From a virus, in the IMG/VR virus record IMGVR_UViG_3300036846_000181, positions 1-24,092 of that record: a stretch of DNA of 24,092 nucleotides, one strand, 5' to 3'. The first letter of the stretch is position 1. Each line of letters starts with the position of its first letter. This document shows, one piece after another, positions 2,154-23,923 of this stretch. The notes beneath the pieces were generated by a model that was not told the DNA's origin, made no database searches, and was given only the letters and a program-made list of their open reading frames with translations. The translations under genes were made by a program, and so were the position numbers.

Positions 2154-2180
2154 GGCCCGGCAGCGATGCCGGGCCTTTTT
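2154..2180 (+). terminator. Intrinsic terminator after the capsid gene
   Basis: A perfect nine-base-pair stem (GGCCCGGCA at 2154-2162 with TGCCGGGCC at 2167-2175) encloses the four-base loop GCGA, a stable GNRA type. Five T residues follow directly. It starts eight bases after the capsid stop codon and before the next ribosome site, so it should reduce transcription into the downstream head genes or define the 3' end of an abundant capsid message. Confidence 0.9.
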
Positions 2181-20099: not shown

Positions 20100-20127
20100 C
20101 CCCGGCCTTCGGGCCGGGGCTTTTTTT
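20100..20127 (+). terminator. Plus-strand terminator at the end of the late operon
   Basis: CCCCGGCC (20100-20107) pairs perfectly with GGCCGGGG (20112-20119) around a TTCG tetraloop closed by a C-G pair. Seven T residues follow at 20121-20127. It lies just after the last late gene and faces the minus-strand block. Confidence 0.93.
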
Positions 20128-21047: not shown

Positions 21048-21692
21048 TCACTCCGCAGGCAGAAGCTTGAGCGCCGCACTGTATCGTTTCTCAAGCTCGA
21101 TCTTGCCGCCGATCCCATCCTTCTCGGCTATGTTCCGCAGAAGCGGCAAGCCCTTGTTGATCGCGGCCTCGATCTCGTCCCGGCTCGCGGTTCGGCCTTC
21201 CGTAAACCACAGCGTCTCAAGCGGTGGGCCGACCTCGAATAGCACGCCGCCACGCCCGTCGCTAATCGGCCGGAAATTCTTGGTGATCCAGATCAGGATT
21301 GCGCCGGGATTGTGCATGATGCCAACCCCGCCCATGACGGTGCCCGCAGGCATGTCCTTTTCGTTCCGACGCATCTTGGGCTGCGCCAGGAACGGGCATG
21401 CCTTCACGGCATATTCCGCGCAGTCACGGTGAGACGGTGGCTCGCTCGACACCCTGTTGATGGAACACATCGGGCCGATGACGAACGCCAGGAATTGGCC
21501 TAGCGGTTGGCCGCACAGCCAGCACAGTTTCTTGTTGTAGGCATCTTTGACCTTGCCGGGGCCGATTGCCCGGAAGTCCCATTTGCCGTCAATCATCGCA
21601 ACGAACCACGGCACTGGATAGCCGCGCTCGTTGACGGGTAGTCTCGCCATCCGCGCCGGGATGGCGATGTCTTTGATCGCATTATTGAGCAT
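21048..21692 (-). CDS. Cys-rich phage protein of unknown function
   Basis: This 214-residue protein has a segment NERGYPVPWFVAMIDGKWDF, then CWLCGQPLGQFLAFVIGPMC, then PPSHRDCAEYA and ACPFL. I recall these blocks from a family of hypothetical proteins in phages and prophages of alpha- and actinobacteria. Cys57, Cys60, Cys76, His88, Cys91 and Cys99 could bind zinc. The C-terminal half has a GGVLFEVGPPLETLWFTEG segment. The strong ribosome site GGAGGT precedes the ATG. It lies in the middle of the minus-strand block, suggesting an early or regulatory role, but no function is known to me. Confidence 0.7.
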   Translation of the reverse strand: MLNNAIKDIAIPARMARLPVNERGYPVPWFVAMIDGKWDFRAIGPGKVKDAYNKKLCWLCGQPLGQFLAFVIGPMCSINRVSSEPPSHRDCAEYAVKACPFLAQPKMRRNEKDMPAGTVMGGVGIMHNPGAILIWITKNFRPISDGRGGVLFEVGPPLETLWFTEGRTASRDEIEAAINKGLPLLRNIAEKDGIGGKIELEKRYSAALKLLPAE

Positions 21693-21721: not shown

Positions 21722-21910
21722 TTACCCCGGATAGTTGCTCATTTCCGCGATGCGCTTCGCTTCCAGTGCCAAATACTCCGACATGTTGGCGTGGTGACGC
21801 CGGAAGATGTCTTGGTCCGTGCTGTTCGCTTCGTGGGCATGGTAGTTCGCAAGCCGCAAGTGGAGCTTGATCGCCTCCGCGTGGCTCAACGTCGTCTTGG
21901 GCATGCTCAT
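21722..21910 (-). CDS. Small helical hypothetical protein
   Basis: This 62-residue protein begins MSMPKTTLSHAEAIKLHLRL and is almost entirely helical and rich in His, Ala and Glu (ANYHAHEANSTDQDIF, then HANMSEYLALEAKRI). No motif is recognised. It starts at an ATGA overlap with the HTH gene and is separated from the Cys-rich gene by 29 bases. Either of two in-frame ATGs (21910 or 21904) could be used; the first is given because of the overlap. Confidence 0.58.
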   Translation of the reverse strand: MSMPKTTLSHAEAIKLHLRLANYHAHEANSTDQDIFRRHHANMSEYLALEAKRIAEMSNYPG

Positions 21911-22239
21911 GGCTTCTTAGCCCTTTGCTCGATCTCTTTGCGCGCCTTTTCTAGTTCCTTCTCGAAATCCACATCCTTGGACTTAACAAATTCCTGCTTG
22001 TAGCCGAGAGAGTAGGTCACGGCGGCGACCGTGGCGTATTGCGGCTTCCGGGTCTCGCCGTCGAACCAGTTCGCCAGCGTGGAACTAGAGACGCCGCTGA
22101 TGACGTGGATTTCGGAATAGGACAGCCCCTCGTCCTTGACGATGGTCCTGATCCTGTCAATCACCGGGTCCTTGTCTTTGAACATATAAGACCGATAGAG
22201 GTGCAACGATCCGTTGGCGCGTTTCGCTTTTTTAGCCAT
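21907..22239 (-). CDS. XRE-type helix-turn-helix regulator
   Basis: This 110-residue protein has an XRE/Cro-type helix-turn-helix at residues about 40-61 (LSYSEIHVISGVSSSTLANW, then FDGETRKPQ), preceded by a helix (DPVIDRIRTIVKDEG) and followed by a short helix and a charged coiled coil at 90-107. The pattern LSYSEIHVISGVSSSTLxNW closely follows XRE helices, with the recognition helix in GVSSSTLANWFDG. It probably binds an operator in this region and acts as repressor or activator, perhaps setting lysis-lysogeny or early gene timing. A strong GGAGG site precedes the ATG, and it overlaps the next gene upstream by eight bases. Confidence 0.8.
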   Translation of the reverse strand: MAKKAKRANGSLHLYRSYMFKDKDPVIDRIRTIVKDEGLSYSEIHVISGVSSSTLANWFDGETRKPQYATVAAVTYSLGYKQEFVKSKDVDFEKELEKARKEIEQRAKKP

Positions 22240-22822
22240 TGGTTTCCTCCGTCGTCGCTGGTGTCACGACTTCCTGCGGCGGCGGTTTTGGCTTCTTTTT
22301 CTTTGCGAGTTGCGTGCGGAAGGTTTTCTTGGCGGGCGTCTTTTCCTTCGGCTTGCCCTTGACCAGCCCGCGATCTGCGGCTTCCTGCATGCCGCGCGCG
22401 AGCAATTGATAGGTGCCCTCATCGATACGCTTGGCGAGCCCGCGTGCGCGCATGAGACTGATCTGCGAATTTGCGGAGGATGGGTTTAGTCCTAACCCCT
22501 CAACGGTGGGCCGCAGTTCGGTGAGCGTCATGATGTGATCCTTCGCCTTCGTCATCGCGCGCAGGATCGCATTGTAAGCGGTGATGGGGTCTCCGTTCTC
22601 GTCCTTGCCGCGCTGGCGGGCTTGACCATGCGCGAGCCCATGGCGCTTCTTTGGACCCTCTAGAAGCTTCATCGCCGGATGAGCGCCGTTGAGTTGCTTC
22701 ACCTTGGTTGGTTTGTCATCACCGTAGATGTCGATCTTCATGTCGGCGTTGCCGGTGGCGATCAACCCTAACAGTTGCGTCATCGGAACATCGAACGAGA
22801 ACCTAAGTCGTTTGATAGGCAT
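22232..22822 (-). CDS. Winged-helix DNA-binding protein of unknown role
   Basis: This 196-residue protein is the first gene of the minus-strand operon. Residues about 80-145 have a winged-helix layout (ITAYNAILRAMTKAKDHIMT, then NPSSANSQISLMRARGLA, then KRIDEGTYQLLARG), where NSQISLMRARG is the recognition helix and RIDEGTYQL the wing. The N-terminal part (residues 1-75) is of unknown type, and the C-terminal tail is rich in Lys and Pro (KKKKPKPPPQ), consistent with DNA binding. AGGGGA precedes the ATG at 22822. It may regulate its own operon. Confidence 0.68.
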   Translation of the reverse strand: MPIKRLRFSFDVPMTQLLGLIATGNADMKIDIYGDDKPTKVKQLNGAHPAMKLLEGPKKRHGLAHGQARQRGKDENGDPITAYNAILRAMTKAKDHIMTLTELRPTVEGLGLNPSSANSQISLMRARGLAKRIDEGTYQLLARGMQEAADRGLVKGKPKEKTPAKKTFRTQLAKKKKPKPPPQEVVTPATTEETNG

Positions 22823-22903: not shown

Positions 22904-22937
22904 AAAAAAACGCGCCGGGTGCAGAACACCCGACGCG
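22904..22937 (-). terminator. Minus-strand intrinsic terminator in the operon leader
   Basis: Read on the minus strand, an 11-base-pair stem (22937-22927 with 22921-22911, including one U-G wobble) encloses the loop TTCTG and is followed at once by seven T residues (22910-22904). On the plus strand the same position would be a C-A mismatch and no T tract follows. It lies 82 bases before the first codon of the minus-strand operon. Confidence 0.8.
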
Positions 22938-22940
22938 CCT

Positions 22941-22986
22941 AGGTCCCGACCTCGGGGGCCTTTGTTAGAGGGTAAGGTCAGGACCC
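22941..22986 (-). other. Upstream hairpin of the leader RNA
   Basis: On the minus strand GGTCCTGACC (22985-22976) pairs with GGTCGGGACC (22951-22942) over ten positions, with one U-G pair, and the stem extends inward by two more positions and outward by one wobble. The loop is about 20 bases. It sits four bases before the terminator hairpin. Confidence 0.6.
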
Positions 22987-23003
22987 GATCTCATTCTGAC
23001 AAA

Positions 23004-23024
23004 TTAAGAACTGCTCTGCACCAT
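23004..23024 (-). CDS. Possible six-codon leader peptide
   Basis: On the minus strand an ATG at 23024 opens the short frame MVQSSS and ends in TAA at 23006-23004. AGGA lies seven bases upstream. It is placed in the leader before the two hairpins, where a leader peptide could couple ribosome position to RNA folding. The three Ser codons in a row (AGC AGT TCT) are notable but such a short frame may be chance. Confidence 0.25.
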   Translation of the reverse strand: MVQSSS

Positions 23025-23073
23025 CTTTCGTTCCTGTTGTATCGTTTTAGGCCGATTGTGCGACCGGAATTTT

Positions 23074-23102
23074 CTTATTTTCCTGGTGTTGATCTAGGTC
23101 AA
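23074..23102 (-). promoter_or_regulatory. Candidate minus-strand promoter for the leader RNA
   Basis: TTGACC (23102-23097) matches the -35 consensus at five of six positions and AATAAG (23079-23074) the -10 at four of six, with an ideal 17-base spacer. The -35 overlaps the near-palindrome TTGATCTAGGTCAA (23089-23102) that also carries the plus-strand -35. Confidence 0.45.
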
Positions 23103-23118: not shown

Positions 23119-23147
23119 TTCGCGTATGCGAGCTAACCATTTTGGTT
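23119..23147. promoter_or_regulatory. Two small palindromes just downstream of the plus-strand promoter
   Basis: TCGCGTATGCGA (23119-23130) has TCGC/GCGA arms, and AACCATTTTGGTT (23135-23147) has five-base arms around TTT. They lie at and just after the expected transcription start of the plus-strand regulator, where an autoregulatory operator would be expected. Confidence 0.35.
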
Positions 23148-23205
23148 GCGAAAAAATCAGAAAAAACAAACGCGACCAAATTTTAGTCATGGGAGGGACC
23201 CTGAC

Positions 23206-23643
23206 ATGGGAGTTAGTATTCCCGAAACCTTGCGCGTGCGCCATCAGCAGTCGGCCATCGTTGCCGGGTTGGCGATGGCAATCATGAGATCGATGCAAAG
23301 GGCGTACACCGCCAAAAACTTCGGGCAGTTGATGGAGCACTTCGCCATCGCCTGCTCGGTTCGCCTGAATGATCAGGACGGCGGCGAGCCATGCACGGTT
23401 GCTGCGCTTTCGCGGCTCTTGGGCATGCCGCGATCCAATGTGGACCGGGCGGCTAAGTCGCTCGTCAAGCAGGGTTTGCTTCGCAAGGAGGGGAACGGCT
23501 TTGTCGGCGATCTCGACTTTCTCGCCGAACACTTCGATGCCGACTATTTCAAGGAGACGTGCGCCGCGATCCTGGCCGCCGCCGACGAACTGCGGGGGAC
23601 CGGGGTCGCGGTGCTTTGTCTCTTGGAGGTGGTGTGCATCTAG
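23206..23643 (+). CDS. MarR-like winged-helix regulator
   Basis: This 145-residue protein has a winged-helix DNA-binding region at residues about 62-105 (CTVAALSRLLGMPRSNVDRA, then AKSLVKQGLLRKEGNGFVG), in which MPRSNVDRAAKSLVKQG is the recognition helix and GNGFV the wing, as in MarR-type proteins. The N-terminal helices (IVAGLAMAIMRSMQRAY) may dimerise. GGGAGG at 23191-23196 lies nine bases before the ATG at 23206; an upstream TTG in the same frame is rejected for lack of a ribosome site. It is divergent from the minus-strand operon and probably acts on the shared intergenic region. Confidence 0.78.
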   Translation: MGVSIPETLRVRHQQSAIVAGLAMAIMRSMQRAYTAKNFGQLMEHFAIACSVRLNDQDGGEPCTVAALSRLLGMPRSNVDRAAKSLVKQGLLRKEGNGFVGDLDFLAEHFDADYFKETCAAILAAADELRGTGVAVLCLLEVVCI

Positions 23644-23686: not shown

Positions 23687-23923
23687 CTAGGCGAAGTCCC
23701 TCGCCGTCACCTCACCATTTTGATCAAAAACTTTGACCCCGTTGGCTTGGAGGTGCTTGAAGATCGATGTCAACTCCAAGGGGTCGCGACTGAGGCGGTC
23801 AATGCGATCAACGATTACGGCCTCAAACTCCCTGTTGCTCGCGGCCCTTAAAAGCTTTTGCAGGTTCTCCCGTTCACTAAGCGGCCCTGCGTCCGGTGTG
23901 CTGGCATACGATACTGCTCTCAT
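23687..23923 (-). CDS. Miniature serine-recombinase-like protein
   Basis: This 78-residue protein matches the catalytic domain of serine recombinases in a short region: DAGPLSERENLQKLLRAASN, then FEAVIVDRIDRLSRDPLELT, then SIFKHLQANGVKVFDQ. The DRIDRLSRD motif is the hallmark helix of the family. The N-terminus MRAVSYASTP resembles the YAxxSS active-site strand, but the roughly 40 residues that normally follow are missing, and there is no DNA-binding C-terminus. A complete enzyme has at least about 180 residues, so it is a remnant or a regulator or inhibitor. AAAGGAAA precedes the ATG at 23923. The stop faces the plus-strand regulator at 43 bases distance. Confidence 0.72.
   Translation of the reverse strand: MRAVSYASTPDAGPLSERENLQKLLRAASNREFEAVIVDRIDRLSRDPLELTSIFKHLQANGVKVFDQNGEVTARDFA

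Follow-up and report, generated by a model that had tools for sequence, protein, structure and literature searches.

The window, that is, the whole stretch of DNA analysed, is a 24,092-base IMG/VR virus record from a soil phage whose major capsid protein is of the Phage_capsid_3 type. A structured region sits in the gap between P0003, on the plus strand, and the minus-strand operon P0001-P0002-P0005. The genes around this gap are the following:

23206-23643, plus strand: P0003, a divergent MarR/IclR-type winged-helix regulator (Pfam MarR_2 and HTH_IclR above cut-off)
22232-22822, minus strand: P0001, first gene of the operon, 196 aa, start at 22822, no family match
21907-22239, minus strand: P0002, a small Cro/XRE-like regulator with weak PHROGs transcription-regulator matches and orthologues in the fetched loci
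21048-21692, minus strand: P0005, a conserved phage protein encoded behind P0002

P0005 has 371 confirmed relatives in IMG/VR, of which the best 80 were kept; Pfam and PHROGs gave no match for the window copy. Its family is very wide among phages and prophages, displays the motifs CW[LI]CG and F[VT]IGPMC (relatives in L032-L085 and L086-L112), and is found in loci from Proteobacteria, Actinobacteria, Verrucomicrobia and Planctomycetes. Since P0005 relatives occur in Bradyrhizobium genomes, the host of this phage is likely, but not certainly, a member of the Rhizobiales. Beside P0003, a short resolvase-like ORF (23687-23923, minus strand, 78 aa) covers only part of the Resolvase domain, and looks either truncated or like a small standalone fragment.

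Two stem-loops are found on the operon strand of the gap:

22941-22986, minus strand: upstream stem-loop (stem 1), 13 bp (22986-22974 with 22953-22941) plus an inner 3-bp helix
22904-22940, minus strand: intrinsic terminator, with a 14-bp stem (22939-22926/22922-22909), a 3-base loop (22925-22923) and seven T at 22910-22904

Stem 1 folds with -22.9 kcal/mol, a stability equalled by 2 of 500 dinucleotide shuffles, and the terminator hairpin with -25.3 kcal/mol, equalled by none of 500. Stem 1 is located exactly where a previous reading, made from the letters alone (hereafter the sequence-only reading), had placed it. The terminator of that reading (22937-22927 paired with 22921-22911, then seven T) was right in its site and its T-run, but its extent was underestimated, the stem being really 14 bp long. 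A stable G+C-rich hairpin with a T-run directly behind it, as expected of an intrinsic (Rho-independent) terminator, is present at 22939-22904, and a terminator scan gave this site the longest stem among the terminator-like sites in the window. The two other strong terminator-like sites of the window (2154-2175 and 20100-20119) come after plus-strand genes. No minus-strand gene lies upstream of the present one, P0003 being divergent; it is therefore not an ordinary gene end. The distance from its end to the start of P0001 (22822) is 81 nt, in line with the approximately 80 bases before the first codon announced previously.

Several U-G/G-U pairs of the stems form on the minus strand only, and the RNA can thus be assigned to that strand. 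The same holds for the 164-nt stretch as a whole, with a folding energy of -61.7 (z -3.24) on the minus strand versus -52.3 (z -0.64) on the plus strand, so that the earlier argument from wobble pairs is borne out. The idea of a structured leader spanning 22904-23067 is to be kept for the two stems, both beyond chance, but not for the 5' part (23068-22991), which folds no better than chance (339/500 shuffles equally stable). In sum, the essence of the earlier proposal has the support of the sequence: a structured RNA of the minus strand that stops at an intrinsic terminator in front of the regulator operon.

Within this 5' part, two further elements deserve attention:

23012-23022, minus strand: candidate antiterminator strand GGUGCAGAGCA, complementary (10 Watson-Crick pairs and 1 GU) to UGUUCUGCACC, 22928-22918, in the terminator
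23004-23024, minus strand: putative leader mini-ORF of six codons (MVQSSS, then stop), read from the sequence, with AGGA at 23035-23032

An 11-bp pairing between leader and terminator was reached by 7 of 3000 shuffles with at most one GU, and by 68 of 2000 with GU free. For the exposed RNA ending at 22916, an ensemble competition test gave an amount of leader-terminator pairing that was matched by 30 of 300 shuffles; the GGUGCAGAGCA/UGUUCUGCACC pairing is the minimum-energy state of this RNA, and the completed terminator outcompetes it. The 11-bp helix is consequently presented here as a weak antiterminator candidate. The start of the mini-ORF overlaps the candidate antiterminator strand, and an alternative pairing combined with an overlapping mini-ORF could possibly make a switch in the leader. 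The mini-ORF contains three consecutive serine codons, and its AGGA lies seven bases 5'.

Upstream of the leader, the control region shared with P0003 holds three elements:

23074-23102, minus strand: candidate leader promoter TTGACC-17-AATAAG, weak, predicted from sequence
23089-23102, no strand assigned: FnrN/FixK-type palindrome of 14 bp, TTGACCTAGATCAA on the minus strand, containing the proposed -35
23135-23147, no strand assigned: AACCATTTTGGTT, candidate operator adjoining P0003; similar GACCAAWTTGGTC palindromes lie by the P0003 relatives in L008, L012 and L013

The promoter with a 17-base spacer proposed by the sequence-only reading at 23102-23074 is indeed present as a sequence, with 5/6 matches in the -35 and 4/6 in the -10, the final T of the latter missing. 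However, it is weak, and a sigma-70 scan of the window, in which sites were no more numerous than in shuffles, did not call it. Promoters in the probable host group depart from the sigma-70 consensus, and for this reason a promoter downstream of the terminator may also be present. Moreover, TTGACCTAGATCAA agrees at 14/14 positions with the FnrN/FixK core consensus TTGANCNNGATCAA (PMC4999443), and also conforms to the FixK2 box consensus TTG(A/C)-N6-(T/G)CAA (PMC9104804). Because the proposed -35 falls inside this predicted box, the promoter reading must change.

FnrN/FixK-type boxes are over-represented in these phages, and this in a spacer-specific manner: counting the window and 72 distinct related loci, TTGAT-N4-ATCAA occurs 8 times, versus 0 or 1 time for the other half-site gaps tested. 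A single base (TTGAC) separates the window box from this strict form. Strict or close palindromes were observed at window 23089-23102, L003:1219, L002:3763, L013:3309, L009:1493, L022:1197 and L084:6825. They precede P0001 in L003, and small winged-helix genes in the window, in L013 and in the L009/L022 pair. A host regulator may bind these boxes and might act in either direction. The canonical class II FixK position (-41.5) was checked in both directions and set aside: TATGCG loosely fits P0003 in the window, and the spacing is lost in L013, L009 and L022.

As for P0003 itself, ACCA-N3/4-TGGT palindromes are found upstream of this gene (23135-23147 and 23174-23188) and of its relatives in L012 (approx. 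3414), L008 (approx. 3218) and L013 (approx. 3275), and are likely to be the operator of the P0003-type regulator. The second window copy, 23174-23188, is imperfect and overlies a minus-strand promoter-like TAAAAT (23185-23180).

The gene order P0001-P0002-P0005 is kept in approximately 15 IMG/VR loci from related soil phages. In L008 and L012, a P0003 relative is divergent from P0001 as in the window, and L013 is a diverged version of this layout; all three lack the two stems, and no operon-strand terminator is found near their operon. L004, L006 and L024 carry a divergent Cro/CI-like gene instead, as read from their sequences by eye. In L002, L003, L005, L007 and L025, the operon is preceded by a terminator-like hairpin that comes behind a same-strand gene. 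Hence, a leader terminator of the P0001-P0002-P0005 operon was found in no relative. Homologues of the gap DNA were detected neither by megablast and blastn against phages and plasmids, nor by blastn over 111 fetched loci, nor in 48 whole records of capsid relatives, and two exact 17-19-mers from the gap had no match in all IMG/VR. The best match in the whole records (31 bases, in G012, approx. 2.5 kb from the capsid gene of that record) looks like chance. The conservation of the stems that a covariance-model search had been expected to reveal did not appear in the relatives found: model R1, built from the single window sequence and thus of limited reach, gave chance matches only, both in the 77 loci and in the 47 whole records scanned. 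A back-translation search returned no P0003 relatives in IMG/VR and no P0002 relatives in genomes; the fetched loci do contain P0003 relatives. As the stems are unconserved in the relatives found, the operon does not carry this design as a conserved trait, and the two-stem leader may belong to a single lineage and have a lineage-specific function.

An A/T-rich stretch with ATACGCC or TTCCGAC at its end was noticed 60-100 nt before P0001 in L012, L008, L013, L003, L002, L005, L025, L007 and L004, where it is possibly the promoter or operator of the operon. The ATACGCC element was looked for in the window and rejected, being absent; no conserved promoter is thus visible after the terminator.

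The leader belongs to no tested RNA family. Indeed, an Rfam search gave nothing at gathering score (the sub-threshold matches to U12, E 0.39, and to a CRISPR repeat, E 2.1, being chance), the P1/P7 C4 covariance model (RF01695) had no match at E <= 10, and the isrK model (RF01394) had no match above cut-off, its sole hit being a 5-bit chance one in another part of the window. By working principle, and provided that the leader terminator is functional, the nearest systems would be P4 CI RNA and the IsrK RNA of Salmonella prophage Gifsy-1. Like IsrK, which reads through into downstream genes (PMC4825925), the predicted product would be a short phage RNA ending in an intrinsic terminator; unlike IsrK, it has no above-cut-off model match, and the read-through isoform and trans activation are IsrK features. 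With the seqA/seqC leader of P4 CI RNA and with P1/P7 C4, it shares a putative leader RNA before an early or regulatory operon and a complementarity inside the leader, and in P4 termination decides operon expression (PMC4825925). It differs from them in having no C4 match, no detectable seqA-seqB-seqC-type repeat, no conservation, and a divergent protein regulator; one pairing was found (leader to terminator), and no second. Similarly, a short ORF, an alternative pairing and a terminator ahead of the first gene recall trp-type leader-peptide attenuators, whereas the putative mini-ORF, of six codons, has no link to amino-acid biosynthesis and the alternative pairing is weakly supported.

In our preferred reading, which is tentative, the P0001-P0002-P0005 operon has a terminator leader specific to this lineage. 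Minus-strand transcription would begin in the control region between the operon and the divergent P0003, which serves both, cross the stable stem 1 and mostly halt at the intrinsic terminator approximately 80 nt before P0001. The halted transcript would be an RNA of approximately 150-165 nt ending at 22904, and the operon would be reached solely by read-through past the terminator. The switch could be the 11-bp pairing between 5' leader and terminator, perhaps sensitive to translation of the six-codon mini-ORF, or alternatively a phage antitermination factor. Such gating is suggested by stems that beat shuffles on the minus strand only. It is favoured by the lack of any upstream minus-strand gene end, in contrast to the five relatives whose hairpin follows a same-strand gene, by the lack of a visible conserved promoter after the terminator, and by the 11-bp leader-terminator pairing that reaches minimum energy at 22916. 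It is weakened because no relative has a leader terminator before this operon, and because the antiterminator is weak and the promoter both weak and uncalled. Operon gating by attenuation is accordingly plausible, and, as no relative shares the structure, the region seems to hold a leader or small RNA of a common type and of local occurrence, and not a demonstrated novel control system.

The same hairpins could instead form a plain insulator that stops stray minus-strand transcription from the P0003 control region, the operon being driven by its own promoter, placed within the 80 nt that separate it from the terminator. Terminators shielding phage operons are ordinary, the same operon is preceded in five relatives by a terminator and then a promoter-sized gap, some 80 nt just suffices for a promoter, and the part of the leader before stem 1 lacks structure. 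However, stem 1 is superfluous for insulation, and the absence from the window of the A/T-rich element found in relatives 60-100 nt ahead of P0001 argues mildly against it; we regard this explanation as credible but rather unlikely. A stand-alone small RNA of approximately 150-165 nt, acting in trans independently of the operon, would also account for the region, since a promoter-like sequence, a pair of stable stems and a T-run together make up a complete small RNA gene, with a structure that beats shuffles. This is unlikely, given that no homologue was found in phages, plasmids, fetched loci, whole records or IMG/VR exact searches, and that a duplex-energy search against the 33 translation starts in the window yielded no outlier (best z -2.3).

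We consider it very improbable that the leader is an immunity RNA of the P4 CI/P1 C4 type, in which RNA processed from the leader would base-pair with that same leader, so causing termination and immunity to superinfection. In favour of this type are its place, with a promoter of the control region on one side and a regulator operon on the other, its complementarity to the terminator and the precedent of Gifsy-1 IsrK for prophage leader RNAs with read-through isoforms (PMC4825925). The analogy with P4 and P1 c4 drawn by the sequence-only reading is left unsupported by the missing Rfam matches (C4 unmatched, isrK not above cut-off) and the lack of conservation, and L008 and L012 run the operon without a leader terminator; furthermore, no flanking seqA/seqC-like pair was found, and P0003, a protein regulator with a nearby palindrome, could already be the repressor. 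Hardly credible, finally, is a processive antitermination element (put- or nut-like) beside a terminator that modified polymerase must pass: close to where a phage operon begins, a stem does stand directly before the terminator, and a boxA-like UUCUUA was seen by eye in the leader just ahead of stem 1, but no Rfam family matched, the terminator is preceded by a single stem, and no N-like protein was identified.

A terminator leader could also be part of a wider circuit, wiring a host oxygen regulator to the control region of a temperate soil phage. The FixK/FnrN box between the divergent regulators would raise P0003 and, through its overlap with the -35, shut off the terminator-ended leader RNA and the operon, and oxygen would bias the lysis-lysogeny decision through both transcription start and attenuation. 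We hold this combination to be quite improbable.

The structure is real and appears confined to one lineage, and its function is a prediction. If the leader works as proposed, a phage of probable Rhizobiales hosts would join the few phages in which an intrinsic terminator, together with a leader RNA, holds back a regulatory operon. The FixK/FnrN-type box, which the promoter reading had hidden, is somewhat more interesting than the structure. Its presence in the control region of this phage and of several relatives is the broader point, as it would allow the role of host oxygen regulators in prophage decisions to be tested in soil and nodule bacteria.
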